From positions 1 through 64,000 of the forward strand of contig SOEU01000018.1 in assembly GCA_021646415.1 (NCBI GenBank): a stretch of 64,000 nucleotides of DNA. The letters run 5' to 3'. Source of the DNA: Candidatus Brocadia sp. (lineage in GTDB: Bacteria > Planctomycetota > Brocadiia > Brocadiales > Brocadiaceae). Numbering within the stretch: position 1 is the first letter of the stretch; each line of letters starts with the position of its first letter. The translations under genes and the position numbers were made by a program. Below are positions 4,771 to 62,672 of this stretch, in pieces. Below the pieces are notes generated by a model. It saw nothing but the letters and a program-made list of their open reading frames with translations, ran no database searches and was not told where the DNA came from.

Positions 4771-4880
4771 TTACGATAAAGGCAAACCCTGAGTGATCGG
4801 GGGGCGCAAAGTAAAGGGTCTTTCGCAGAGACGCACTGCAATGCGTCTCTACCCCTGATAAAGACAGCCTTACTGCCGAA
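4771..4880 (+). ncRNA. GEMM-I type (cyclic dinucleotide) riboswitch aptamer, copy 1
   Basis: The sequence follows the GEMM-I layout: ACGATAAAGGCAAACC, a stem CCCTGA/TCGGGG closed by a GTGA (GNRA) tetraloop, then GCGCAAAG, then a second stem GTCTTT (4818-4823) with AAAGAC (4860-4865), then AGCCTTACTGCC. GGCAAACC and CGCAAAG are the conserved blocks around the ligand site. The GGCA at 4781 can pair with TGCC at 4874. A G is present where position 20 of the Vibrio Vc2 RNA contacts the ligand, which favours c-di-GMP, but cGAMP cannot be excluded. Copy 2 (62382-62497, minus) differs by compensatory changes. It controls the molybdoenzyme operon starting 60 bases downstream. Confidence 0.8.
4827..4850 (+). 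repeat. Palindromic repeat inside the riboswitch variable loop
   Basis: AGAGACGCA (4827-4835) and TGCGTCTCT (4842-4850) form a perfect 9-base-pair hairpin with loop ctgcaa. It sits between the two strands of the second riboswitch stem. The other riboswitch copy has unrelated sequence there. This resembles dispersed palindromes of the type GAGACGCATTGCAATGCGTCTC known from several bacterial genomes. Confidence 0.7.
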
Positions 4881-4921
4881 GATCATACAGCGTATCTTTG
4901 CAGTAAGGCTTTTTTATTTTT
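4866..4921 (+). terminator. Intrinsic terminator overlapping riboswitch copy 1
   Basis: AGCCTTACTGC (4866-4876) pairs exactly with GCAGTAAGGCT (4900-4910) and is followed by TTTTTATTTTT. The 5' arm is the conserved 3' strand of the aptamer, so aptamer and terminator are mutually exclusive. Ligand binding would be expected to prevent termination, giving an ON switch for the operon. Confidence 0.85.
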
Positions 4922-4939: not shown

Positions 4940-7672
4940 ATGCCACAAGATGAATCTACAAAAACTTCAAAGGTGTTAGCAGGGGCAATGGAAAAGGTTT
5001 TATCACCAGCACTTGATCTCTTAGAACATATAAGTGAACCGATAGGTAAGTATCCATACCAGGGATGGGAGTCATTGTATCGCGAACAGTTGGATTATGA
5101 CTATTTTGGCAGAACTACTCACTCGGTGAATTGTACCGGCTCTTGTACCTGGAAGGTTTACGTTAAGAACAATATCGCATTCAAGGAAGAACAGTATGCG
5201 GATTACCCCGATATAAATTCGATTCTTCCCACATATAATCCTCGAGGATGCCAGAAAGGCGCTAACTACAAAGAATATGTATATGGTCCCCAGCGCTTGA
5301 AGTATCCTCTGATACGAGCAGGTGCCCGTGGCGAAGGAAAATGGCGAAAAGCCTCATGGGAAGAAGCTATGAGTTATATCGCAAACAAAATTGTCAATGC
5401 CATATCTAACTACGGCCCTGATACGGTGACATTTTATTCGGCTAATCCTGCCAAGTTTGCGATTACGTATGCTGGGGGTGTGAGACTGGCAAACTTGATT
5501 GGTGCCGTGGTATGCAGCTTCTATGATTGGGTATCTGACCTGCCACCAGGCGAACCCATAACCTGGGGCATACAGACCGACTCCTGTGAAGCAGCTGATT
5601 GGTTTAACTCAAAATATATCATCGTGTGGGGGTCAAACATCCTGGAAACACGTATCCCCGATGCCCATTTCCTGACTGAAGCACGAATGCACGGCACCAG
5701 GATAGTAACCATCTTCCCGGAATACAACCCGACTTCAATCCATGCTGACATTTATGTCCCTGTAAAGCCTGGCACTGACTGTGCTCTGGCTTTGTGTATG
5801 GTAAATGTGATCATGAACGAAAAGCTTTACGATGAGACTTATATAAAACAGTATACCGACATGCCCATGCTTGTCAGGATGGATAGTGGGATGTTTCTCA
5901 GGGAAAATGATATGGTACAGGCTGGGAGTCCGGATAAATTTTATGTTTGGGATCTGAGCCTTGATAAACCTGTTCTTGCGCCTGGCACCTGGGGAACCCT
6001 GAATACTAACGGCTGGACGTTGAATTTAGGTTCAATTAACCCGGCCCTCGAAGGAACATTCACAATCAACACCCTGTCTGGCAAGGTAAATGTAACTACG
6101 GTTTTTTCCCTGCTCAAACAGAAACTCACAACCTATGACCCTCCGAGCATATCTATCATCACGGGTGTGGATGCTGGTCTTATCATACAGATAGCCCGTG
6201 AATTTGCAAAAACAAAACCCGCCAGGATTATCGGGGGCGCCGGAACAAACCATTATTACCATAACGACCTCATGAGCAGAAGCCATATACTGCTTGCAGC
6301 CATGACGGGAAATGTCGGAATACCGGGCGGGGGCTTCGACTACTATGTAGGACAGGAGAGATTCTGGCCAGAAGATGGATTAGTAAAGCTTGCGTATCCC
6401 CTCGGTCGCTTAAAACAGCGGTTCCAACCCACGACGCTCTGGACACATGTACATGCGCATATTGCCTCAGACGTTAATACTCTCTGGCCGCGTCCCATTA
6501 TAGATTATATACGCGAAAGTGTGAACAACGGCTGGATGCCACTCTATCCGGAAGGCACTCTCGACAGCGGCAGGTCACCCAAGGTTCTTATCATATGGGG
6601 AGCTAATTACCTAAACCAAGCCAAGGGATTTGAGTCCATATTGACAAATCTTTGGCCAAAGCTCGATCTTATTGTGGATATCGACTTCCGCATGAATACA
6701 ACGGGGCTGTATGCAGATGTGATTCTGCCGGCCGCCAGTATGTTTGAGAAGTGGGACCTCAGTGTCACAGACCTTCACTCGTACATTAACCCCTTCACAC
6801 CCATTATCGAGCCGCAGATGGATAGCAAAACTGATTGGCAGATCTGGCAGCTTTTGGCTAAAGCACTTCAGGATACAAAGTTCTCTTTTATCGATACATT
6901 GCTGGAAGGAACCACAATTAGCCGCGATTTTTCGAGACTGGTGAATGATTTTACCGGAAATGGCACCCTTGCATCAGACAAGAGCGCCGGGCAGTTTATC
7001 CTGGACAATGCAGTGGAAACTAAAGGCATGACCATGGATGAAGTTAACCAACAACCCAAACGCTTTGTGGCTACACATGAGGAAAGGACAAGTGATATTA
7101 AGGAAGGTGTTGCGTACTACGGTTTTCAAAGAATGTATGAATTGAAACGACCTCTCTCCACACTGACCGGCCGCCAGCAATTCTATATCGACCATCAGTG
7201 GTTCCTCGATTTTGGCGAGCAATTGCCCGTATACAAACCACCAGTTGATGAGGATAAATATCCGCTTCGCTGGAACACCCCACATGGCCGCTGGAGTATT
7301 CATTCGGTATGGCGAGACGCAAAGTATCAGTTGCGACTTCAGAGAGGCCGGCCTATCGTGTATCTGAATCCAGCCGAAGCTCAGGCTCGTGGTCTGGCTG
7401 ACAATGATACAATTGAAATTTATAACGACCACGGAAAGATAGTTGCCCAACTTTGTATTTCTCAACGGATACCGGCATGCATGGCTCAAATGTATCATGG
7501 TTGGGAACGTTACAACTTCGAAAAAGGGGGATTCCAGAGTCCAACAACTATCCGTATTAAACCGACACAACTTGTCGCAGGCTATGGACAACTTGAGTTC
7601 CAGTTTAACTATTGGGGTCCGACTGCAAACCAAAGGGATACTCGCGTCAATATTCGTAAATACATTTCATAG
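4940..7672 (+). CDS. NarG/NxrA/SerA-family molybdopterin oxidoreductase, alpha subunit
   Basis: The 910-residue protein is a type II DMSO-reductase family catalytic subunit. H61, C65, C69 and C104 fit the HxxxCxxxC...C ligands of the FS0 iron-sulfur cluster. D196 in SFYDW is the expected aspartate ligand of molybdenum. The sequence around 190-290 is strongly NarG-like (WGSN, PDAHFLTEARM, PGTDCALAL). NarG and anammox NxrA are over 1100 residues; this length fits selenate, chlorate, perchlorate and dimethylsulfide enzymes better. No Tat signal is visible at the N-terminus, although those enzymes usually have one. It heads the operon with beta, heme-b gamma and chaperone genes. The substrate cannot be decided; nitrate/nitrite or another oxyanion is plausible. 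Confidence 0.85.
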   Translation: MPQDESTKTSKVLAGAMEKVLSPALDLLEHISEPIGKYPYQGWESLYREQLDYDYFGRTTHSVNCTGSCTWKVYVKNNIAFKEEQYADYPDINSILPTYNPRGCQKGANYKEYVYGPQRLKYPLIRAGARGEGKWRKASWEEAMSYIANKIVNAISNYGPDTVTFYSANPAKFAITYAGGVRLANLIGAVVCSFYDWVSDLPPGEPITWGIQTDSCEAADWFNSKYIIVWGSNILETRIPDAHFLTEARMHGTRIVTIFPEYNPTSIHADIYVPVKPGTDCALALCMVNVIMNEKLYDETYIKQYTDMPMLVRMDSGMFLRENDMVQAGSPDKFYVWDLSLDKPVLAPGTWGTLNTNGWTLNLGSINPALEGTFTINTLSGKVNVTTVFSLLKQKLTTYDPPSISIITGVDAGLIIQIAREFAKTKPARIIGGAGTNHYYHNDLMSRSHILLAAMTGNVGIPGGGFDYYVGQERFWPEDGLVKLAYPLGRLKQRFQPTTLWTHVHAHIASDVNTLWPRPIIDYIRESVNNGWMPLYPEGTLDSGRSPKVLIIWGANYLNQAKGFESILTNLWPKLDLIVDIDFRMNTTGLYADVILPAASMFEKWDLSVTDLHSYINPFTPIIEPQMDSKTDWQIWQLLAKALQDTKFSFIDTLLEGTTISRDFSRLVNDFTGNGTLASDKSAGQFILDNAVETKGMTMDEVNQQPKRFVATHEERTSDIKEGVAYYGFQRMYELKRPLSTLTGRQQFYIDHQWFLDFGEQLPVYKPPVDEDKYPLRWNTPHGRWSIHSVWRDAKYQLRLQRGRPIVYLNPAEAQARGLADNDTIEIYNDHGKIVAQLCISQRIPACMAQMYHGWERYNFEKGGFQSPTTIRIKPTQLVAGYGQLEFQFNYWGPTANQRDTRVNIRKYIS

Positions 7673-7685
7673 GAGGTAGAGTACA

Positions 7686-8720
7686 TTGCCGATAATGAAA
7701 CAGATAAGAATGGTAGCCGATCTTAATAAGTGCCTTGGATGCCAAACGTGTACCATGTCATGCAAAACAATGTGGACGGATAGAAACAAAGGACAAATGC
7801 ATATGTACTGGATTAATGTGGAAACCAGACCCGGCAAAGGATATCCAAAAAACTGGGAAACCCAGGGTGGCTGGTTTACTGCTGACAGAAACAACATTCC
7901 ACTTCCTAACATCAGCGAGGATTACGGCGCTCCGTGGGAATATAACCATCATGAAGTACTGAAAACAGAGGGAGGAGACTCCCAAGCTTCAAATTTAATT
8001 CCGTCCCCTGAGCCATCCGGCAGTGATGCTTATGCCAGCAACTGGGATGAGGATGTTGGTAAGGGAATCTTCCCGAATTCCTATTATTTTTATCTACCTC
8101 GTATCTGCAACCATTGTACCGATCCACCATGTTTGGAGGCCTGCCCGCGCCAGGCAATTTATAAACGCAAGGAAGATGGGATTGTCTTGATCGATCCGAA
8201 AAGATGCAGGGGATACCGCTATTGTGTTAAAGGGTGTCCTTATAAGAAGATCTACTACAACTCGGTAGAAAAGATATCTCAGAAGTGTATCTTTTGTTAT
8301 CCCAGGATCGAGCAACGTAAAGGGAATTTCTGTGCAGCCCAGTGTGTAGGCCGCATATACTGGGTTGGCTATGCCGAGGATACCAACAGCAACGTCTATA
8401 AACTGGTGAACAAATGGAAGGTAGCTTTACGGCTCCATCCTGAATACAAAACCGAACCTAACGTATTTTATATTCCACCTCTTAGTCCCCCGACTTATTC
8501 ATTTGCGGGCAAGCTGACTACAAGTCCACGCATTCCTATTGAGATGCTGGCAAAAATGTTTGGAGATGCTTATGATCAAAGCTACGATCAACGAGTAGCC
8601 CGTATCAAGCAAATCTCCGACATTATCCAAAATGAGCGAAAGAAGGTTTCAGCAGGAAGTAATTCCGAATTGATTGATATATTAATTTCGCGTTCAGAAA
8701 AAGACCGGTTTCAATTATGA
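7686..8720 (+). CDS. NarH/NxrB-like iron-sulfur beta subunit
   Basis: The 344-residue protein carries four Cys groups of the NarH/SerB/DdhB type: CLGCQTCTMSC (about 18-28), CNHCTDPPCLEACP, CRGYRYCVKGCPYKK and CIFCYPRIEQ followed by CAAQC. In the third group a tyrosine replaces a cysteine, as in beta subunits with one [3Fe-4S] cluster. It should pass electrons between the molybdenum subunit and the heme-b gamma subunit. The best start is TTG at 7686, nine bases after AGGAGG; an ATG at 7695 is too far from it. It follows the alpha gene by 13 bases. No signal peptide is expected, because such subunits are exported with alpha if at all. Confidence 0.88.
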   Translation: MPIMKQIRMVADLNKCLGCQTCTMSCKTMWTDRNKGQMHMYWINVETRPGKGYPKNWETQGGWFTADRNNIPLPNISEDYGAPWEYNHHEVLKTEGGDSQASNLIPSPEPSGSDAYASNWDEDVGKGIFPNSYYFYLPRICNHCTDPPCLEACPRQAIYKRKEDGIVLIDPKRCRGYRYCVKGCPYKKIYYNSVEKISQKCIFCYPRIEQRKGNFCAAQCVGRIYWVGYAEDTNSNVYKLVNKWKVALRLHPEYKTEPNVFYIPPLSPPTYSFAGKLTTSPRIPIEMLAKMFGDAYDQSYDQRVARIKQISDIIQNERKKVSAGSNSELIDILISRSEKDRFQL

Positions 8721-8739
8721 ACAGGAGGCTGCTTTAACC

Positions 8740-9399
8740 ATGGCCATCCACGACCTCAGTGGTTCCTCGAGAGCTATTACAGCCGTATTTGCACCTGGGC
8801 CAATAACCCTCAACCCGGCAGACCCTGCATGGGCTCAAGCCCCGGAAATGACAATCAGTCTCAGCAGGAGACTTCACGAATCTGGCGCCAGGCTGCCACC
8901 CGATGCAGAAAAGAGCAGGAGTGTTAAAGTAAAAGTGGTACACAACAGCACCGATATCTTCTTTCTATGCCAGTGGAATCAAAGTACTGCACATGTTACC
9001 GTAGATGATTACACCCTTTTTGCTGACGCCTTTGCCATAGAAATCCCTCTCATCACAGAAGAGAGCCCGATCTGGATGGGCGCCGCGGATAAACCCGTGA
9101 ATATAATTTATTGGAGGGCTGATCTGCCAAGTCCTGAAAATATTGTTGGCGGTGGTATAGGCACTCCTCAAAAAAGCCCGGATACCGCTTCTCAGAATAT
9201 CAGGCATTATCAGCGCTGGGCTAAGGGGGTTTGGAGTCTGATTATAACCCGTCCGATGGCATCCGCATCGAACAACCAGGTCTCTTTTGTAAGAGATAAA
9301 AGTTACAGATTAGCCTTTGCCAACTGGAAGGGTGGAATCGATGCCGAACGAGGTGGCAACAAAATTGTCTCAGATTGGCAACATCTTTCTATTAAATGA
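8740..9399 (+). CDS. Heme-b gamma subunit, EB_dh/DdhC/SerC type
   Basis: The 219-residue protein resembles the heme-binding gamma subunit of ethylbenzene dehydrogenase, dimethylsulfide dehydrogenase and selenate reductase (EB_dh domain). The motifs SPIWMGAA and QRWAKGVWSLIITRP suggest M113 and K162 as axial ligands of a single heme b, by analogy with EbdC. No signal peptide is present (it starts MAIHDLSGSS), which is unusual because these subunits are normally periplasmic. The start follows AGGAGG by nine bases. It likely completes an alpha-beta-gamma enzyme encoded by this operon. Confidence 0.8.
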   Translation: MAIHDLSGSSRAITAVFAPGPITLNPADPAWAQAPEMTISLSRRLHESGARLPPDAEKSRSVKVKVVHNSTDIFFLCQWNQSTAHVTVDDYTLFADAFAIEIPLITEESPIWMGAADKPVNIIYWRADLPSPENIVGGGIGTPQKSPDTASQNIRHYQRWAKGVWSLIITRPMASASNNQVSFVRDKSYRLAFANWKGGIDAERGGNKIVSDWQHLSIK

Positions 9400-9480
9400 T
9401 GCTATAAATTTAACCAATTGGAAGGAACTGGAGAAGTTCAGCATCCAGCTTACCAATCCTGGTCGCATCCGGAGTAATTA

Positions 9481-10170
9481 ATGTCCCAAATATCATCGTT
9501 TACCGTCAGTACAGAGCCAACTATCCGGAGCAATCTTTACAAATTATTTTCTCTTGGATTCCGTTACCCCACTCCGGAGGTTTTCAAAACATTTCAAAAT
9601 GGAACCTATTTAACAAGACTGTGGGATAACATAAAATCTCTTCCCCATCTTAAAACGATTCAAGCCCAACAGGCCGAATTAACCGGAAAAATTCAAGACA
9701 GTCTGGAAGGAGTTGGCTTTGAAGACTTTGTGGTAAAATGCGTCAGCACCTTTGATATTGGAACCCCCGAACCACCCTGTCCACCCTATGAAGGATTTTA
9801 TCGATCAGAATCCAGGGCTGCCGTCATGCTCAGTATAAGCAAATTTTACAAACATTTTGACCTGATTATGAGTCAAAAAGAAGGAAAACGTGAACTCCCT
9901 GATTATCTTTGTGCGGAGCTGGAATTCCTCCATTTCCTGACCTTTAAAGAGGCTCAGGCCAGAATTGATGGAAATCCTGAATTTTTGAAAGGGTACCTTC
10001 TGGCACAAAAAGATTTTCTTGAAAGGCACTTGATACAATGGGTACCAAAATTTTGCGATTCTCTTCAAAATTCGGCCAACGTACCATTTTATGTTTTGAT
10101 TGCCAGGATCGTATTAATGTTTATCACATGTGAACTTGAATTAGTAAGTGCGAAATTACATAGTGTCTGA
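9481..10170 (+). CDS. TorD/NarJ-family molybdoenzyme chaperone
   Basis: This 229-residue, mostly helical protein looks like a TorD/DmsD/NarJ-type cytoplasmic chaperone that helps insert the molybdenum cofactor into the alpha subunit. Supporting signs are the N-terminal RSNLYKLFSLGFRYPTPEVF and the later LCAELEFLHFLTFKEAQA segment. GGAG lies seven bases before the ATG. The last codons and the stop TGA (10168-10170) come from the left end of an IS remnant. Removing the IS would restore a slightly different tail (KLHIFS instead of KLHSV), so function is probably intact. Confidence 0.8.
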   Translation: MSQISSFTVSTEPTIRSNLYKLFSLGFRYPTPEVFKTFQNGTYLTRLWDNIKSLPHLKTIQAQQAELTGKIQDSLEGVGFEDFVVKCVSTFDIGTPEPPCPPYEGFYRSESRAAVMLSISKFYKHFDLIMSQKEGKRELPDYLCAELEFLHFLTFKEAQARIDGNPEFLKGYLLAQKDFLERHLIQWVPKFCDSLQNSANVPFYVLIARIVLMFITCELELVSAKLHSV

Positions 10171-54264: not shown

Positions 54265-54531
54265 TTACGCTGGTGTTGGCGTCATCCGATAGTTTTTCTG
54301 TACATACCCACCTTCAGGTAAATTTACTCCGGAGTTAGTTATTGTTTGATAACCCGAAGCTGTAACTCTTATTGTGTAAGTACCCGAATTCAATAAAGGA
54401 CTCACATAACTGCCATCGGTATTTCTATTCACCGTAGCATCTGTAGGACCATCAAAAGCCATTTGCGCACCAGAAATACCTGCACCAGTATTTTTATTTG
54501 TTACTTTTCCCCAAAATGTTCCCGGCGGCAT
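54265..54531 (-). CDS. Small carboxypeptidase-regulatory-like beta-sandwich protein
   Basis: The 88-residue protein consists of one CarboxypepD_reg-like domain: WGKVTNKNTGAGISGAQM, DGSYVSPLLNSGTYTIRV and TASGYQTITNSGVNLPEGG. There is no signal peptide before it, although such domains are usually extracellular. AGGAGG precedes the ATG by eight bases. It could be a secreted fragment using another route, a capsid- or pilus-like component, or a cytoplasmic binding domain. Confidence 0.7.
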   Translation of the reverse strand: MPPGTFWGKVTNKNTGAGISGAQMAFDGPTDATVNRNTDGSYVSPLLNSGTYTIRVTASGYQTITNSGVNLPEGGYVQKNYRMTPTPA

Positions 54532-54707
54532 GATTTTCCTCCTTTCGAAATTTTAATATACAGCCATAACCTCAAGAAAAGCGCGCATACCTATCTCTTA
54601 AACATATCGTTACCTCCTATAAAATCTTGTTTTTTTTTATAAAAGTAGGGTACACACCCCATACCTACTTATTAACACCTACAAATAATATGTTGAATTC
54701 AAAAAGA

Positions 54708-56054
54708 TCAAAAGTACACGATGACGGAGACCAGGAACAGGTGCTCGTCGAGATCAAAATGAGTTCCTTTAAGACCCCTGCCGAAATCTTCTCCATCTAC
54801 GTCGTTTGCCCATCTAAACTGATATGCACCGTCAATACTGAATCTCTTGAAAGTAATACCGCTTCCTGCACTAAATCCATATACGTCTGTAGGATCATCC
54901 AGGGATGGCCGGGGGTCATAAAAAAGTCCTCCGCGGACGGGGATAATCATCTTTTGCCTGAATATGAGGTATTCCGTGCCAAACCTTACAGCGTAAGTAT
55001 CGTCAATGTCCCTGTCGGTTGATACACCACCCAGCGGACGTGATTTTACACCAGTTTCTTCATTCTCTTGCTCAAACTCCGACCAATCGGTCCACGTCAC
55101 ATCCATGGAAAAAGACAGTGCATCGCTGTAACGGAAACCAAATCCGCCACCAAATGACATGGGATAATTTATCTCTAAGTGTTCCCTTATATGACCTGAT
55201 CCTACCGTTGTCCCAGTACTATTAGTGATAACGGAAAAAGAATCTGTAACACGATCCACATCAGCCGTATACGGGGAATGGAAAACGGCTCCAAAGGTAA
55301 GGCGTTTATCCTCCTTCTCCCATACTTCCAGAAGCATACCTGCCGTTATGTTTACTGCCTGAAAATTTTTGAATGTTTCGGTCCCATCATAGGACCTGCT
55401 AAAATCATTACCAAAAACCGAACCCTCACTTCTTGCTCGCAGTGTTTCTTTCCAGGCAAAGTCTCCAAAAAGCTCATCGGTAAAGAAATTTACGGCTATC
55501 CCAATGGATAATTTGGGTATTACTTGCAGGGAGATTGCAGGTGTCAGTGCAGCTATTCCACCTCTTGACTTAAAATCGACTGATTGTTTGTCAATAAATT
55601 CGCCTCCTGAAGACTCAAATATCCGATCATAGTCAAACCTCATGTGAAAATCATATTTCTGCTGATAGTTCAGGGCTGCAACCAGATTTTTTCCAAAGAT
55701 CCTGAATGGATACGCAACACTGGCATAATTCAAATCGCCAGAGGATACAGATTCATCATCAAGTGATAACAATCCAGTAGTGCCGGGATCGAAATCCTGC
55801 TGTATGGATAAGAATGAGTCTACCAGGGAAAATTCCGGTCTTTCGAGTTGTGTTAAGCCACTGGGATTCCATGACGCCGCTGTTGCATCATCGGCAACGG
55901 CAATAAAGGCACCACCCTGTCCTAAGGCCCTTGCACCTGAACCGACAGGAAGTGGGACAGCATTAATGGAAGGAGGCGCCAATTGAGCAAAAGAGGTTTT
56001 GCCTGATAGTATAAGGATTAGGATACAGATAAATATATTATGTTTCAATCTCAT
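54708..56054 (-). CDS. OMPP1/FadL/TodX family outer-membrane protein
   Basis: The 448-residue protein has a signal peptide ending near TSFAQ. Its N-terminal plug motif is GARALGQGGAFIAVADDATA followed by SWNPSGLTQL, characteristic of FadL/OMPP1 channels, and alternating beta-strands run to a terminal phenylalanine. It would form a barrel for hydrophobic molecules. It lies downstream of the caspase/CsgG genes on the same strand. Confidence 0.85.
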   Translation of the reverse strand: MRLKHNIFICILILILSGKTSFAQLAPPSINAVPLPVGSGARALGQGGAFIAVADDATAASWNPSGLTQLERPEFSLVDSFLSIQQDFDPGTTGLLSLDDESVSSGDLNYASVAYPFRIFGKNLVAALNYQQKYDFHMRFDYDRIFESSGGEFIDKQSVDFKSRGGIAALTPAISLQVIPKLSIGIAVNFFTDELFGDFAWKETLRARSEGSVFGNDFSRSYDGTETFKNFQAVNITAGMLLEVWEKEDKRLTFGAVFHSPYTADVDRVTDSFSVITNSTGTTVGSGHIREHLEINYPMSFGGGFGFRYSDALSFSMDVTWTDWSEFEQENEETGVKSRPLGGVSTDRDIDDTYAVRFGTEYLIFRQKMIIPVRGGLFYDPRPSLDDPTDVYGFSAGSGITFKRFSIDGAYQFRWANDVDGEDFGRGLKGTHFDLDEHLFLVSVIVYF

Positions 56055-56117: not shown

Positions 56118-56465
56118 TTATTTCTTGTATTTTTGGCCTTTTATTTCTGTATTATTGAAATAGGTTATTAAGCCCTTGATCATTTTGCTGATGTATCCCT
56201 GGTCTAAAGCTCTGTATAACTGAGAACGGACTTCGCCACAGGATCCTTTCGCTATTCCAAGAAACTGAATAAACTCGCCTTTTCTGCCTCTTTCAAAGCC
56301 TTCCGCGACATTATCCATTATGGACCCACTTGCCTGGCGCATTTGACCTTTCAGGTCATAATCTTTGGAAATTAATCCATTATTGGTAATCGAGTAACTC
56401 TCTTTTGAAAACTCTCTTGCTTTTTGCCATGCATCGACATCCTCAAACTTTCTGATTGTAGCCAA
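56118..56465 (-). CDS. Four-helix-bundle protein (23S rRNA intervening-sequence type)
   Basis: The 115-residue protein has FEDVDAWQKAREFSKESY, LKGQMRQASGSIMDNVAEGF and IAKGSCGEVRSQLYRALDQG, the pattern of TIGR02436-like four-helix-bundle proteins. These occur in intervening sequences of 23S rRNA and as stand-alone genes of unknown role. Degenerate GGTTTC-like repeats flank it on both sides, suggesting a mobile unit inserted between the CsgG-like and FadL-like genes. Confidence 0.85.
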   Translation of the reverse strand: MATIRKFEDVDAWQKAREFSKESYSITNNGLISKDYDLKGQMRQASGSIMDNVAEGFERGRKGEFIQFLGIAKGSCGEVRSQLYRALDQGYISKMIKGLITYFNNTEIKGQKYKK

Positions 56466-56521: not shown

Positions 56522-58669
56522 TCATTTCGTTATCACAAGATCCTTCTTTTTTATCTTCCCGGTACCTTTCTTACTTATTCTGGCAAATGAGGTTTCAGGT
56601 TGTACCTGCACAATTCTGGCAATGGCATCCAGTGGTTCTTTGAGCACAAAATCGCCTTCCTTTGTCTCCCGGAATAAGAGTAATTTCATTCCTAATTTAA
56701 GACCACTGGTTGCGCCTGTATCGATATGAAATCCGTTCCCTGAAACACGGATAATACCCCCCTGTATCATAGGAAATTGCCGTTTCACCTTGAGTGATAA
56801 ACCGTGCATAAGCCATTCGAGATTTTCCGCACTTTTATCCTCATCGTAAACATCGGCCTGGGCAAGTACCTGTGTTGTCTCTGTATCTACAAGTCGCAAT
56901 GTGACGTTAATGCCTTTGGAATCTTCTTCCACAGAACCAAAAAGCATGCCCTCTGCCGATCGGATCTTCCCGACCTTTATGGCCGTGTCCGGAGATGTAA
57001 GTTCGGTGCTGGTGATTTTCTGTTCACGAAGAATTTCCTCCAGTTTTGCCCGGTCCCGTTCCACAAAGTTAAATCTCTTCGGCTCTTCGTCAAATGATCT
57101 GAGTAACATGGAATAGAGGGTTTCCGGGGGAACCTCTTTTTCTACAAATGTCCTTAACGGGAGCAATGCAACGGTATACCGTGCATCCGCTTCGAGAAGA
57201 TAGAAGGTCTTTTTGGTAATTTTTACCGGTGAAAGTTGCGTCTGATTTCCCTGAGTATCAACGGCCCTGACAATTACGGCATTTTCTCCTTCATTGAGAG
57301 TTAACAAATGATTGAAGAAGACGTGCTTCGCAGGACGGATATCTAACGGTTGTTGATTCACGAAAAATCCGGCAACGCCGCTGTCATCGTGTGCATGCAT
57401 GCTGAAGAAGAGGTTTACGTCATGGACAACGGCAGGTTTTAAATCTGTATGTACTACCGGAGGGATATTGTCCGCAGTCGTATCTTTCATGGGCTGGGGA
57501 GAATGGGCCGTGGAAGGCGGTTGTAACGCAGCCTCTCCATGAGAAGCTAACAATTTCGCAACTGTGTGCCCGTCTATTTTTCCGAATGCAATCATAGCTG
57601 GTGTGTTTGTATGGCTGGTATATTTCCTGGTATTTAGTATGTCTTCTGGCCATAACAATGATGCCTTCTTTTCTATCGGCTCTTCGCCCTTTGTTTCATT
57701 TCCTGCGATATCGATTACCCTTAACGAGATTTTGTCCAGATTTGCCAAGACAATATCCTGCTTAAAATTGACTTCCTTACCAGGGATAAGGGGTACCTCT
57801 GTATTGTTGATAGAGAGATGTTTTACGCCATGGTCATCCTCAATAGTCCCCTGAATGGTGGCGATGTCCTTGCCGCCTTTTTTGTGTAATTGTATATCAT
57901 CCAGATAGAGAACCGGCGGGCGCATGTCCAGGATAAGCTTGAAATCTTGCCAAATACTCTTGCCTGAAAGGTCTGTTGCTTCCAGGCTGATAACATTTTC
58001 TCCTGCACGCAGAGAAATGATTTCGTCAAAAGGAAGGTCCTTTTCAGCAAGTTCTATGAATAGTCTTTCACCCTGAATTCTCATGCCATTTACATAAGAA
58101 TCATCAGTAGCAACACCTTTTAGTTTTGCCATCGGTGTATTGACAACCGCACCATTTACATGAGAAGTAACCTTAATTTCCGGGGGTTTCAGGTCTGCTT
58201 TTGTCATCTTTATGATAGCCTCATTGCATTTATTCAGATAAAACGTGGCCCTGGCGGAATCAGCAGTGGAGAGAGATATTGCAAGTTCCTTTTTGGCATC
58301 TTCGTATTTGCCCTGGGTGTAATAAACAATCCCCAGTTCGCGGTGGGCAAAGTATTCCCAGAAATGAAGCCCGTAGCTTCTGGCAGAGCGCTGGTCTCTA
58401 CTTCGCAAACTGATAGACTTTTTAAAGTCCTGAACTGCCTCATCGTAGTACCCACTCCCGGCAAACCATCGGCCACGAACGTAATAGTTCCACCACTTGC
58501 CCCGATGAAGATTAAAATCGCTGGCAATCTCTTCTTTCGTGTGACCCGGCTCAAAATAATCACGCCAGTTATCCGTACCAATGTGTGATACGGTAGAACA
58601 GCTTATGAAAGGCAGCACAAACAAGGGTAAAAAAAGGATGCATTTATATTTTTTACAGGGTAATTTCAT
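56522..58669 (-). CDS. Lipoprotein with TPR, Ig-like and CsgG-like domains
   Basis: The 715-residue protein has a lipobox LPFISC (cysteine near residue 24), a TPR-like region (about 65-150), two or more Ig/beta-sandwich domains (about 165-345 and 400-480) and a C-terminal CsgG-like domain (about 490-640; YTVALLPLRTF, RFNFVERDRAKLEEILREQ), ending with an SH3-like segment. CsgG-like domains occur in outer-membrane assembly proteins. The last 310 residues are duplicated in the next gene upstream. It belongs to the caspase gene set. Confidence 0.75.
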   Translation of the reverse strand: MKLPCKKYKCILFLPLFVLPFISCSTVSHIGTDNWRDYFEPGHTKEEIASDFNLHRGKWWNYYVRGRWFAGSGYYDEAVQDFKKSISLRSRDQRSARSYGLHFWEYFAHRELGIVYYTQGKYEDAKKELAISLSTADSARATFYLNKCNEAIIKMTKADLKPPEIKVTSHVNGAVVNTPMAKLKGVATDDSYVNGMRIQGERLFIELAEKDLPFDEIISLRAGENVISLEATDLSGKSIWQDFKLILDMRPPVLYLDDIQLHKKGGKDIATIQGTIEDDHGVKHLSINNTEVPLIPGKEVNFKQDIVLANLDKISLRVIDIAGNETKGEEPIEKKASLLWPEDILNTRKYTSHTNTPAMIAFGKIDGHTVAKLLASHGEAALQPPSTAHSPQPMKDTTADNIPPVVHTDLKPAVVHDVNLFFSMHAHDDSGVAGFFVNQQPLDIRPAKHVFFNHLLTLNEGENAVIVRAVDTQGNQTQLSPVKITKKTFYLLEADARYTVALLPLRTFVEKEVPPETLYSMLLRSFDEEPKRFNFVERDRAKLEEILREQKITSTELTSPDTAIKVGKIRSAEGMLFGSVEEDSKGINVTLRLVDTETTQVLAQADVYDEDKSAENLEWLMHGLSLKVKRQFPMIQGGIIRVSGNGFHIDTGATSGLKLGMKLLLFRETKEGDFVLKEPLDAIARIVQVQPETSFARISKKGTGKIKKKDLVITK

Positions 58670-58959
58670 AATTCCTTATTTCGCAGTAATTTTCTGACTT
58701 TCACAGCGATATCATCCCTTACAGGTTATTAATTAGGTTGGGTTTTAAAAGGCAAAAAACCAACGACTTTCTTGTCACTCCGAACGAATATGAGGAATTT
58801 TGACATCGTAAGATTTCTCTTTGCAATGATGACAGCGATCCTCATCATTCGTCTTCTACCGACTGTCAACAGGTACTCCGCCCTAAGCCAGGTTCAATCC
58901 TCTTTCTCTGGATTTCTCCAATTTGCTTAGACATTTCTGCCATTCACATTGGTTTTGAC
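58670..58959. other. Intergenic region
   Basis: This 290-base gap separates the two CsgG-like paralogues. It contains the sequence GTCACTCCGAACGAATATGAG, a form related to dispersed motifs seen in several genomes. I see no gene. Confidence 0.4.
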
Positions 58960-60255
58960 TTATTTCGTCATGACAAGGTCTCTCTTTTCTATCCTTGAAG
59001 TACTTTCTGCACTTATTCTGGCAAAAGCAGTTGTGGGACGTACCCGTATTACCCTGGCAACTGCATCAAGTGGTTCTTTTAGAACAAAATCCCCTTCTTT
59101 AATCTCCCGGAATAACAACAACTTCATACCCATTCTTATTCCATTGGCAGCACCCGCATTAAAAAGGAATCCATTCCTTGAAACACTGATAATATTCCCC
59201 CGTACCATGGGAAATTGTCCTTTCATCTTAAGTGACAAACCATAGAGAAGCCATTCAAGATTCTTCAAACTTCTATCTTTCTCATGCACACTGGCACTTG
59301 CAAGTATACGTGTTGTTTCGGTATCAACAAGCCGTAACGTTATAGTAATTCCCGCGTCATTCTCTTCCACGGAACCGAAGAACACACCCTCTGCCGCACG
59401 GATCTTCCCGATCTTTACAGCCGCTTCCGGAGATGTAAGCTCTGTGTTGCTGATTTTTTGCTCATGGAGAATTTCCTCAAGTTTTGCCGGATCCCGTTCC
59501 ACAAGGTTAAATCTCTTCGGCTCTTCATCAAATGCCTTGAGTAACAAGGAATACAAAACGTCAGAGGATATATTGTGCTGTGCCAATACCCTTAATGGAA
59601 GCAGTGCAACCGTATACAGGTTATCCGTCTCAAGAAGGTCAAATGTCTTTTTTGTTATTTTGATTGGGTATAGCTGTGTTTCATTTCCCCGGGTATCAAC
59701 GGCCTTTATGGTTATAGTGTTTTCCCCTTCATTCAGTGTTATCAAATGATTGAAGAATACGTGCTTCCCGGGGCAGATTTCTAAAGGTTGTTGATTAACA
59801 TAGAGCCTGTCCACACCTTCATTATCGTGAGATTCTATACTAAAGAAAAGATTTTGGTCATTGACGATAGCGGGTTTTAAATCGGTGTGTACTACAGGCG
59901 GAACCGTGTCATTTGCTGTATTTTGTGAGTTATGAGAACCACCGTTCTCTCCCGCCTTTTCTCTCTCATACTGAGAGGAAGGGGAAACAAGGGGTGGTTG
60001 CATTGTATCTGCACACTGTGAGGCTGATTTGAAATAATCTCTTCGGTTGTCTGCATTGATTTGGAAGACTATAGCACAGCTTATAAAAGGCAATCCCAGT
60101 AACAGCCGCACTAGAGTATTACTCTGGAAAAACTTCTTTTTTTGGAAAGTTTTTTTACACCCCCCTGTGTCCCCCCTTGCGAAGGGGGGAAAGAGAGGGG
60201 TCTTTTGGTTGCTGCAGTGCTGCGCCAGGACATCGTGTTTGATTTTTTTATTCAT
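58960..60255 (-). CDS. CsgG-like lipoprotein paralogue
   Basis: The 431-residue protein is a shortened paralogue of the 715-residue lipoprotein. From residue 117 on (VPPVVHTDLKPAIV) it aligns without major gaps, including the CsgG-like domain with YTVALLPLRVL and RFNLVERDPAKLEEILHEQ. A lipobox LPFISC (about residue 59) follows an atypical 50-residue lead that includes codons of a palindrome (60171-60189), so export may be impaired. The TPR and first Ig-like domains are missing. Confidence 0.72.
   Translation of the reverse strand: MNKKIKHDVLAQHCSNQKTPLFPPFARGDTGGCKKTFQKKKFFQSNTLVRLLLGLPFISCAIVFQINADNRRDYFKSASQCADTMQPPLVSPSSQYEREKAGENGGSHNSQNTANDTVPPVVHTDLKPAIVNDQNLFFSIESHDNEGVDRLYVNQQPLEICPGKHVFFNHLITLNEGENTITIKAVDTRGNETQLYPIKITKKTFDLLETDNLYTVALLPLRVLAQHNISSDVLYSLLLKAFDEEPKRFNLVERDPAKLEEILHEQKISNTELTSPEAAVKIGKIRAAEGVFFGSVEENDAGITITLRLVDTETTRILASASVHEKDRSLKNLEWLLYGLSLKMKGQFPMVRGNIISVSRNGFLFNAGAANGIRMGMKLLLFREIKEGDFVLKEPLDAVARVIRVRPTTAFARISAESTSRIEKRDLVMTK
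60171..60189. repeat. Palindromic repeat within a coding N-terminus
   Basis: CCCCCCTT (60171-60178) and AAGGGGGG (60182-60189) form a hairpin with loop gcg. It encodes part of PPFARGDTGG in the CsgG-like paralogue, ahead of its lipobox. Confidence 0.7.
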
Positions 60256-60386
60256 AAGTTAGTTTTCTTAAATAGATTACTCCAGTTTTAAAATCATCTG
60301 TATAATCTGTGAAATCTGTGGTTCCAAATGTTTTTGGTCTGAAACTCAGCCCCGCTAGTCTTTCTTCTTTTCTTATTGAGCGATTT

Positions 60387-62324
60387 TTATAATTTTCGCT
60401 TACCAGCAATTTTTTCTCTGATTTTTGCTGCGACATCATTTGCCACGATTCTCAAATTTTCCTCACCCTGAAAGGCACGTTCAAATGTATCAATAAGGGT
60501 AGTTGCAGTATCTACAACCTCCATCCTTAGAATAAATTCATCCGATGTATTTCCTTGAGAAACGCCACCAAAGCAAAGAAATGCAGCCCCCTGTATCTTT
60601 CCTAATTCGATCCTGAACAATGCATCGGCAAGTACAGAACCAGAGAGTCTTTGCTCCCTTAAAATCTCCTCCTGGAATTCTAAATCCCTTTCCACGACAC
60701 TTAAACTCTTTTGCTCCAGTAATGCATCAATAACCCTTTGCCGCAGCCTTTCCATATCGTGTCTTTTCGATAAAGCGCCCATCTTCACATTGAACTCCTT
60801 AAGAGACACAGGTATCGTGATCGGAATCTCCATGAGTTCGGATTTCAGTTTTTTAGTCTTTTTGGCGACTCTGGGTTTTTCTTCCCTAATCTGTCCCTTT
60901 GCCAGTATTTCTAATTCTTTAATAAGCGTATCGATGTTGTCCTTTGTCTTTTGTATATCTTCGATGTCTTCTGTCAGCCGTATATCTTCTCCGTTATGTA
61001 TTGATTCAATAGATTCCAAACTCTGCGCAGATTCATCATTTTTCAAGTGACTTCCACCAAGGGTATTAAGATTTAGCTGTGCGAGCAAAAGTTCTTCGTT
61101 GAGCATCGCAATATACTCATCTGTCTCCTCATCTGGATTGATAAAAAAGTTATCAGACATATCGGCGAAACCCCTCTTTTTTACCGTAACCGGATACGTA
61201 CCACTCATGAGCTTAATGTTCAGAGGAGTTGTACCAACTTTCTTCCCTTTCACATATACAGATGCCCCTTCAGGATTTGTAATAATTTGCAAGGTCCCAA
61301 AGCGTGGCACCTCGGTTGCTTGTCTGTTTTCTTTCGAAGAAATTTTTATGCCCGGGAATCCCAGGGGAAGGTTATTGTCGAAGTTACCGGAGGTATCAGG
61401 GTGCTGAGCATTCCGGGTTGCCCGCTTTACCTTGTCCTCTAAAAAATCGAATGCCTCTGCAAGGGTCACAATGCCATTGTTATTCCCTTCGAAATCTGCC
61501 TTTCCTTTCATCCCCTCCAGCAAATAGTGAGTAAACACCCCATGTCCCCCTCCCCACTTGCTGGATTCCATAGAGACCTCACCGGCACGACTGGCACTTA
61601 TAATTCCCCAGCCATCTCTGACCGATTTAAGCGTAGAAAGGGCTACGTTAATGGTATTAAAAAATCCCCTCGTACCGATAGTGCATTCCGTCAAACCAGC
61701 ACTATGACAGGTATCAGCAAAGAAAACCAGCTTCTTTGCTGAGATGTATCGTTTCATATCTGCATTGACATGTTCCATGTGATAGGCCGTTGCTGACAGG
61801 TCATCGAGTTCTGAGTCATGCATCAGTAGGTAAAGATTACTAAGACGATCGGGTTCGGGTGCACCATGGCAAGCCATGAAGATAACCACAAAATCGGTGT
61901 CGACTGCCTTTTTTAAAAAATTCGTGATGGCCGACTTAACGTTTTTAAGGGTTGCCCGATCGTTTTTTAACAATACAATATTCTCTTTATTGAAATTGCC
62001 GCCAACCGGGCTGGTGATAAAGTCATAAAAAGCCTGGGCATCGGCATCGGCATATTGTAAATCCGGTATCCTGGAGTCTTTATAATCGGATATGCCGATC
62101 ACAACGGCATAACGCTGGATGTGACTATCTTCAAAATATTGTTTTGGCGGCAATATGCCCCGAATAAAATGACGACCACGGCCATGGGGAATGTCCGAAT
62201 ATCCTGAAATTTCGACTTCGGATGATTCAACGTCTTGTGAAAAGGCACAAAGAACAAGACTCGGCAGAAATAAAAACACTGCTACACAGATTAAATTTTT
62301 TGTATTTACCAAATAATTGTTCAT
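60387..62324 (-). CDS. Secreted caspase-family protein with PEGA and CsgG-like domains
   Basis: The 645-residue protein has a signal peptide (about residues 1-30), a caspase/metacaspase-type domain (70-330) with catalytic H153 (FMACHGAPE) and C206 (FFADTCHSAG), a PEGA domain (about 345-410; TNPEGASVYVKGKKVG), a coiled-coil linker and a C-terminal CsgG-like domain (about 505-645). It is the first gene after riboswitch copy 2. AAGGA precedes the ATG. An exported caspase-like protease may process envelope proteins or sense damage; substrates are unknown. Confidence 0.85.
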   Translation of the reverse strand: MNNYLVNTKNLICVAVFLFLPSLVLCAFSQDVESSEVEISGYSDIPHGRGRHFIRGILPPKQYFEDSHIQRYAVVIGISDYKDSRIPDLQYADADAQAFYDFITSPVGGNFNKENIVLLKNDRATLKNVKSAITNFLKKAVDTDFVVIFMACHGAPEPDRLSNLYLLMHDSELDDLSATAYHMEHVNADMKRYISAKKLVFFADTCHSAGLTECTIGTRGFFNTINVALSTLKSVRDGWGIISASRAGEVSMESSKWGGGHGVFTHYLLEGMKGKADFEGNNNGIVTLAEAFDFLEDKVKRATRNAQHPDTSGNFDNNLPLGFPGIKISSKENRQATEVPRFGTLQIITNPEGASVYVKGKKVGTTPLNIKLMSGTYPVTVKKRGFADMSDNFFINPDEETDEYIAMLNEELLLAQLNLNTLGGSHLKNDESAQSLESIESIHNGEDIRLTEDIEDIQKTKDNIDTLIKELEILAKGQIREEKPRVAKKTKKLKSELMEIPITIPVSLKEFNVKMGALSKRHDMERLRQRVIDALLEQKSLSVVERDLEFQEEILREQRLSGSVLADALFRIELGKIQGAAFLCFGGVSQGNTSDEFILRMEVVDTATTLIDTFERAFQGEENLRIVANDVAAKIREKIAGKRKL

Positions 62325-62340
62325 AGGTATGTATCCTTAT

Positions 62341-62398
62341 AAATAAAAAAGCCTTACTGCAAAGATTTCTTTTCAATAACATCTTTGGCAGTAAGGCT
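62341..62398 (-). terminator. Intrinsic terminator overlapping riboswitch copy 2
   Basis: On the minus strand AGCCTTACTGCC (62387-62398) pairs with GCAGTAAGGCT (62350-62360), followed by TTTTTATTT. The 5' arm is shared with the aptamer, so ligand binding should prevent termination before the caspase gene. Confidence 0.85.
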
Positions 62399-62497
62399 GT
62401 CTTCTTATTTCTAAACTTCTTCTGGCTTCCTGGTTCTACCCTGTTGAAGACCCTTTACTTTGTGTCCCCTGATCACTCAGGGTTTACCTTTATCGCT
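62382..62497 (-). ncRNA. GEMM-I type riboswitch aptamer, copy 2
   Basis: The minus strand reads GCGATAAAGGTAAACC, a CCCTGA/TCAGGG stem with GTGA tetraloop, then GACACAAAG, a stem GTCTTC/GAAGAC (62446-62451 with 62399-62404) and AGCCTTACTGCC. Compared with copy 1, C-to-U in GGCAAACC is matched by G-to-A in CGCAAAG, a T-G pair in the first stem becomes T-A, and the last pair of the second stem changes from U-A to C-G. These paired changes support one conserved RNA fold. It lies 58 bases upstream of the caspase gene. Confidence 0.8.
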
Positions 62498-62511
62498 GAT
62501 GTTTATTTAGA

Positions 62512-62539
62512 ATTATATAATCACTTTATAATTATGCAA
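62512..62539 (-). promoter_or_regulatory. Promoter of the riboswitch/caspase operon
   Basis: On the minus strand TTGCAT (62534-62539) and a perfect TATAAT (62512-62517) are separated by 16 bases. The start would lie near 62505, a few bases before the aptamer, as expected for a riboswitch leader. Confidence 0.7.
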
Positions 62540-62672
62540 ATGAGCAAGTTAAATGCCAGCAATATCGAAATGGAATTTGTTTTGAGAAATTGGGTCCTAT
62601 CACCTTATTTCAAAATAATACAGGGATTGAAAAAAATATAAACAACTTTAAATTTATTGTAATAATCTATTG

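Follow-up and report, generated by a model that had tools for sequence, protein, structure and literature searches.

An exported caspase in an outer-membrane gene set of Candidatus Brocadia with a predicted c-di-GMP riboswitch leader

Caspase homologs known from bacteria are mostly discussed with regard to cell death or stress. Orthocaspases carry a His-Cys (HC) dyad and cleave after basic residues (PMC6426788). Here, we analysed a stretch of 64,000 nucleotides from Candidatus Brocadia sp. (positions 1 to 64,000 of contig SOEU01000018.1, assembly GCA_021646415.1; referred to as the window), which encodes an orthocaspase behind a cyclic di-GMP (c-di-GMP-I) riboswitch and in front of genes for envelope proteins. 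On the minus strand, from 62.5 kb downwards, the order is c-di-GMP-I aptamer, caspase, short paralog, long tetratricopeptide repeat (TPR) lipoprotein, four-helix-bundle protein, barrel of the FadL/PorV superfamily and terminator-like hairpin (Table 1). The source genome, G000, comprises 3.81 Mb in 42 contigs.

With bacterial orthocaspases and type I metacaspases (C14) the caspase shares the Pfam C14 domain, the His-Cys dyad, an Asp two residues before the Cys and metacaspase-4 and Yca1 as top structural matches, but it differs from them in carrying an export signal, in its fusion to PEGA and to a C-terminal domain of envelope type, and in its place within an outer-membrane operon. The C-terminal domains encoded in the window have the fold of FlgT, PelC, TolB-N, LpoB and CsgG (Z 10-11; FlgT E 3.9e-8), whereas no flagellar, pel, curli or tol genes lie beside the set and the fold is here joined with TPR, immunoglobulin (Ig)-like and protease parts. 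As in c-di-GMP-I (GEMM-I) riboswitches with an overlapping terminator, the aptamer scores above the Rfam cut-off and the terminator uses the aptamer 3′ strand; what differs is the target, a caspase operon. The type IX PorU-PorV attachment complex (PMC5562754, PMC8545088) likewise unites a clan CD cysteine protease, a FadL-superfamily barrel and surface proteins, but the protease in the window is C14 and not C25, the barrel lies below the PorV cut-off, and we do not count the set as a member. The Burkholderia BiofilmReg FecR/CHASE2 operon (PMC5192318) combines a CHASE2 sensor with an exported protein and is linked to biofilms; it differs in using a histidine kinase where Brocadiales relatives of the window have a cyclase, in having no caspase, and in its FecR component, homology to which is unsupported here. 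In the literature searched, with subscription journals largely outside it, we found no paper on an anammox caspase or on a caspase under a c-di-GMP riboswitch.

The caspase and its envelope neighbours

A first, sequence-only reading of the window had proposed an exported caspase with a PEGA domain and an intact His153/Cys206 pair. Pfam assigns residues 71-312 to Peptidase_C14 (PF00656, 2.6e-15, 57.2 bits versus a cut-off of 21.4) and residues 342-402 to PEGA (1.9e-15), and the N-terminus is, by eye, a type I signal peptide; the window copy has no lipobox, and some caspases of relatives read L-T-A-C at the N-terminus. The domain order is signal peptide, C14, PEGA, K/E-rich linker and TolB-N/FlgT/CsgG-like C-terminal domain (about 500-645). 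The proposed catalytic pair is not only intact but invariant: the motifs His153-Gly and Asp204-x-Cys206-His are kept in 19 aligned orthologs that are 47-87% identical to the window copy, as expected if the protease is active and under selection. From the Asp204-x-Cys206 motif, cleavage after basic residues (Arg/Lys) is predicted. Phmmer found no direct sequence match in the PDB, and a PDB profile search reached metacaspase-4 at E 0.083. VIA-align of the low-confidence AlphaFold model, with matches mostly to its caspase and PEGA regions, placed metacaspase-4 and Yca1 on top (Z about 10). Apart from the caspase fold, nothing speaks for a caspase of cell death or phage defence: the protein has a signal peptide and envelope neighbours, its match to NCBIfam caspase_w_EACC1 reaches 89.8 bits with a cut-off of 140, and it was not found in the viral contigs searched. 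We consider such a role extremely unlikely.

The ortholog search covered 62 Brocadiales genomes, of which 20 have the caspase, and in all 20 the long lipoprotein adjoins it or is split at a contig end. The FadL-like gene comes next wherever the contig reaches it (as a fragment in G014); the single exception is G025, where about 475 bases of contig remain and hold no FadL-like gene. In several relatives, the reading frames of caspase and lipoprotein overlap or almost touch (7188/7191 in L098, 12942/12946 in L099 and 9891/9894 in L101, for example), as one would expect of a single operon. The gene set in the window extends at least as far as the FadL-like gene at 54708. G031 has no caspase any more, and its lipoprotein and barrel are broken pieces (pseudogenes). 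A lack of co-conservation and structurally unrelated C-terminal domains were the two outcomes named as refuting the sequence-only reading; the neighbourhood survey speaks against the first, and the domain comparison that follows against the second.

That reading had also assigned the C-terminal domains of the caspase and its two neighbours to one general type. The C-terminus of the caspase matches both neighbours in tblastn (E about 1e-7), and with alignments cut into domains, hhalign pairs it with residues 490-640 of the long lipoprotein at a probability of 98% (E 1.9e-13), while four unrelated segment pairs used as controls all gave 0.9% or less. On this sequence evidence, the C-terminal domains of caspase, short paralog and long lipoprotein are truly homologous; the homology is taken from hhalign because the caspase model, with a mean predicted local distance difference test (pLDDT) score of 46, is too poor. 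Their description as CsgG-like was right in kind. Both neighbours exceed the cut-off of the Pfam family CsgG (PF03783), with 33.3 and 31.6 bits, and the caspase falls short of it (5.5e-4, 19.7 bits, cut-off 20.8). The fold was assigned on the lipoprotein model (pLDDT 68) and carried to the caspase domain by homology. Foldseek lists FlgT first (3.9e-8), with LpoB and PelBC also present, and VIA-align of model residues 497-633 gives PelC and TolB (Z 11.3), FlgT (10.3) and LpoB (10.2). Judged from this model, the shared domain is better named TolB-N/PelC/FlgT/LpoB-type, CsgG being the nearest Pfam name. No curli genes (csgA/B/E/F) occur among the neighbours in the window or the scanned neighbours in relatives, the rest of the genome not having been searched. 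The LpoB C-terminal domain among the structural matches, together with a weak Pfam LpoB match, would fit a peptidoglycan-linked function in which these domains activate wall synthases and are trimmed by the caspase. We regard this as very unlikely, given that no wall synthase is encoded nearby, that PelC, TolB and FlgT match equally well and that the FadL barrel would be left unexplained.

VIA-align of the long lipoprotein matches TPR arrays over residues about 25-155 and glucodextranase domain B over 158-248; the TPR region spans about 35-156 and the TolB-N/PelC/FlgT-like domain 497-633. The short paralog is 66% identical to residues 395-715 of the long one. The first 48 residues of its open reading frame (58960-60255) run through a G/C-rich, repeat-like intergenic stretch (CCCCTCTCTTTCCCCCCTTCGCAAGGGGGG, window 60111-60255 on the minus strand), and a protein starting from the GTG at 60111 would open with a compact lipoprotein signal (MRLLLGLPFISC), which makes this GTG the probable true start. 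The lipobox Cys is missing from the short-gene orthologs of G014, G015 and G018, so that the term lipoprotein, used for both copies in the sequence-only reading, is safe only for the long one, which has its lipobox; the short one is an incomplete Brocadia copy of it, and its start codon is in doubt.

The c-di-GMP-I leader and other upstream inputs

A riboswitch ahead of the gene set had been noticed from the sequence, with neither class nor ON logic given; it matches the c-di-GMP-I family RF01051 at 59.7 bits. The final helix of the aptamer ends in AAGACAGCCUUACU, and the bases AGCCUUACUGCC therein open a 17-pair terminator stem that is followed by a T-run. The 5′ arm of the terminator is therefore the 3′ strand of the aptamer's last helix, and the two helices are mutually exclusive. 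The terminator folds at -23.8 kcal/mol (z -5.2 for the platform), and the full leader at -50.2 kcal/mol when free and -35.7 kcal/mol when the aptamer helix is forced, a preference of 14.5 kcal/mol for the terminator form without ligand. Because the helices exclude each other and the ligand-free fold favours the terminator, ligand binding should permit transcription, and the leader is very probably a c-di-GMP ON switch. The aptamer is kept at the same place in G014, G015, G018 and G023; the terminator arms are conserved in G014, G015 and G018, the relatives whose leader sequence was followed as far as the gene, and the aligned stretch of G023 ends inside the leader. A promoter-like site upstream (Table 1) is weak, the count of comparable sites across the region being about that expected by chance.

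Genome-wide, G000 has 43 c-di-GMP-I aptamers over the cut-off. In 23 of 44 leaders, a T-run is preceded by a strong hairpin (below -10 kcal/mol) that pairs with the aptamer 3′ end; a looser script threshold gave 31 of 44, the surplus being near-zero-energy folds. Many of these leaders share a common, cassette-like aptamer/terminator layout. Many of the genes behind the other switches encode, by eye, exported proteins, repeat proteins, proteases (a subtilase-like and an M48-like one among them) or a polysaccharide enzyme, which fits the surface role proposed below for the caspase operon. Counts per genome are 19-56 in Brocadia (56 in G017), 14-28 in the genus Jettenia and in G029, G033 and G035, and 1-8 in many genomes of other genera of the family, an expansion in Brocadia relative to many related genomes. 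A second switch of the same overlapping-terminator design, best scored by the GGC variant, lies in the window at 4772-4881 on the plus strand. It precedes a molybdopterin oxidoreductase operon (4940-10170, plus strand) with, by eye, a catalytic, an Fe-S and a haem-type subunit and a chaperone; this respiratory enzyme is apparently under direct c-di-GMP control, as far as the sequence indicates.

In most relatives, the caspase gene has other companions, which are not visible from the window. We built a tree from the 19 caspases that were long enough; G012, an 84% complete genome with its caspase divided between contigs, was left out. Five Brocadia genomes (G000, G014, G015, G018 and G023; type R) have the orthologous c-di-GMP-I leader and the short paralog. 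Another 12 of the 19 genomes, both members of a second family among them, lack this riboswitch, and their caspases are longer by about 95 residues at the N-terminus (type C). All 12 encode an ortholog of a CHASE2 and class III cyclase protein (PF05226 1.6e-40, PF00211 1.4e-29), the catalytic motifs of which appear intact. Its gene directly precedes the caspase in eight of these genomes; contig ends hide the link in G043, and it lies on another contig in G013, G025 and G034. Ten of the 12 (not G001 and G025) also encode a giant surface protein of 1,400 amino acids with propeller, PKD and CarboxypepD_reg domains and a dead C13 domain, which adjoins cyclase or caspase in most of them. The extra N-terminal domain, the cyclase and the giant protein are all missing from type R. 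The two remaining genomes, from Jettenia (type N), keep the operon with neither riboswitch nor cyclase, so that neither input is essential.

On the tree, a single branch (98/97) separates type C from types R and N, and the riboswitch takes two changes, either one gain and a loss in Jettenia or two gains. Among the tree genomes, the type C set is identical to the set with a CHASE2-cyclase ortholog. In the 20th genome, G012, the caspase is of the form with the long N-terminus and the giant protein is present, but no cyclase ortholog was found. The second-messenger input of the operon has apparently been swapped between a co-encoded adenylate-type cyclase and a c-di-GMP riboswitch. A search for a weak riboswitch before the Jettenia caspases gave none, only a palindromic repeat with chance matches to miRNA families.

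These cyclases raise the possibility of a signalling module, in which a periplasmic caspase, originally working with the CHASE2-cyclase, would cleave a sensor or anti-regulator, and lipoprotein and barrel would be envelope sensors with no part in surface-protein maturation. The apparently intact catalytic motifs in 12 genomes, the exchange of the caspase for a Ser/Thr kinase in other Planctomycetota (see below) and the control of Burkholderia biofilm by a CHASE2 sensor operon (PMC5192318) point in this direction. Yet the lineage of the window has lost the cyclase and kept the protease, and Pfam does not identify the extra N-terminal domain as FecR; we judge the explanation rather unlikely. The FecR identity of that domain, suspected by eye, found no support in Pfam, in a search with the FecR model PF04773, which matches elsewhere in these genomes and not at the caspase, or in a PDB profile search.

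The giant protein was also considered as a second active protease, and this was rejected: each of the nine copies that we checked has another residue in place of the catalytic Cys of its C13 domain. His and Cys are both kept in four stand-alone C13 genes of type R and N loci. In these loci (L103 16545-18574, L106 2278-4344, L107 1950-3773 and L093 2748-4656), a propeller protein and the intact C13 peptidase are encoded near the FadL gene, and the separate genes mirror the domains fused in the type C giant. A stand-alone C13 was not found in G000.

Propeller, C13 and CarboxypepD_reg genes thus occur in these neighbourhoods either fused into giants or split. Together with the FadL/PorV-superfamily barrel beside a clan CD protease, they recall PorU-PorV-like maturation and attachment, with the barrel as shuttle, the caspase as cutting or attaching enzyme and the giant propeller-PKD-CarboxypepD_reg proteins as cargo. 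The barrel, which the sequence-only reading had missed, nevertheless stays under the cut-offs of NCBIfam PorV_fam (51.4 bits, cut-off 90), T9SS_OM_PorV (21.5, cut-off 250) and BamG, and the protease is C14 rather than C25. SprA (PF14349) had no match in 10 genomes, where the positive control likewise had no match anywhere. A type IX-like role is unlikely in our estimate.

Table 1. Features of the caspase locus in the window
Feature	Position	Strand	Basis
Promoter-like site TTTGCA-17-TATAAT, 14 nucleotides upstream of aptamer	62512..62540	-	Consensus scan, 10/12 positions
c-di-GMP-I riboswitch aptamer (RF01051)	62384..62498	-	cmscan 59.7 bits, gathering 35
Expression platform, intrinsic terminator with T-run, stopping immediately 5′ of ribosome-binding site	62341..62398	-	Sequence, folding energies, z -5.2
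Exported orthocaspase, 645 amino acids	60387..62324	-	Pfam, ortholog alignment, hhalign, VIA-align on low-confidence model
C14 domain of caspase	61389..62114	-	Pfam PF00656 2.6e-15
Caspase C-terminal domain, homologous to C-terminal domains of both neighbours	60390..60827	-	hhalign, tblastn
Short paralog: second Ig-like domain and FlgT/CsgG-like C-terminal domain	58960..60255	-	Identity to long paralog; Pfam CsgG 4e-8
Long lipoprotein: lipobox, TPR, two Glucodextranase-B/Ig-like domains, TolB-N/PelC/FlgT-like domain, FlgT_C-like end	56522..58669	-	Pfam, Foldseek, VIA-align
23S rRNA-IVP type four-helix bundle protein, accessory operon insertion	56118..56465	-	Pfam PF05635 1.5e-28
FadL/PorV-superfamily outer-membrane barrel	54708..56054	-	Pfam PF03349 2.8e-19
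Terminator-like hairpin 3′ of FadL gene, possible operon end	54646..54661	-	Pattern scan only
CarboxypepD_reg-domain protein	54265..54531	-	Pfam 4e-12

The 23S rRNA-IVP type gene is inserted at the same place in G018 (77% identical) but not in most relatives. By comparison of upstream sequence, the CarboxypepD_reg gene (54265-54620, minus strand) has apparently lost its export signal or carries a degraded one; signal or lipobox is present in the orthologs at L103 15999-16424 and L093 5181-5573.

A candidate surface-protease module

We tentatively favour, as a plausible reading that falls a little short of probable, a c-di-GMP-induced surface-protease module that is docked on an outer-membrane scaffold and processes surface proteins. 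Going by the anatomy of the RNA, at high c-di-GMP the ligand would hold the last helix of the aptamer and block the overlapping terminator, and the operon would be transcribed to yield the exported orthocaspase, the TPR/Ig/FlgT-like lipoprotein with its shorter copy and the FadL-type barrel. Lipoprotein and barrel would form a platform at the outer membrane, on which the caspase may dock through the C-terminal domain that is homologous to that of the lipoprotein. The docked caspase could then cut after basic residues in proteins of the periplasm or the surface, large ones of the matrix or surface being the likeliest targets, and thereby couple surface assembly to sessile life. The platform would be coupled instead to the CHASE2-adenylate-type cyclase and the giant surface protein in most relatives.

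Several observations weigh against this proposal. The giant surface protein of the relatives is absent from G000, many Brocadia genomes do not have the module at all, and the Jettenia operons do without either input. The C-terminal domain of the caspase cannot be judged on its weak AlphaFold model. Moreover, domains of the TolB/LpoB/PelC fold serve unrelated tasks (TolB with Pal, LpoB in PBP activation); with functions as different as those of TolB, LpoB and PelC, the fold type alone does not prove outer-membrane assembly. A last point comes from relatives outside Brocadiales, to which we now turn.

A profile of the lipoprotein found relatives, recognised via the TPR part, in eight genomes of another Planctomycetota family, and in the five copies that were read the alignment spans the full length. 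A FadL-like barrel follows the lipoprotein in all three loci readable on both sides (L154, L155 and L156 of G101, G227 and G260), and an Ig-repeat giant comes next in G227. Upstream of the lipoprotein, G227 and G260 encode a Ser/Thr kinase that contains a transmembrane segment. At their C-termini, the upstream proteins of these loci match the C-terminus of the lipoprotein (hhalign 87%, E 4.3e-6) but that of the caspase at 6% only, which is the further point against the proposal. This second, separate case of an enzyme that ends in a related domain and is paired with lipoprotein and barrel is the best support, if indirect, for co-assembly. It may reflect an undescribed Planctomycetota envelope system, in which a TPR/FlgT-like lipoprotein and a FadL-type barrel take exchangeable enzymes (caspase or Ser/Thr kinase) via related C-terminal domains and mature surface proteins, the input in Brocadia having been swapped from cyclase to c-di-GMP riboswitch; we hold this wider scheme to be possible but doubtful. 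The observations of the sequence-only reading were thus confirmed, and its interpretation as a co-assembling envelope complex is partly supported by the sequence comparisons.

An exported, conserved caspase in an outer-membrane gene set that is predicted to be induced by c-di-GMP suggests a role at the surface or in biofilms and not in cell death. The growth of anammox granules is relevant to wastewater treatment. The replacement of a cyclase by a riboswitch before one operon, apparent from the comparison of relatives, would be a clear natural case of second-messenger rewiring.

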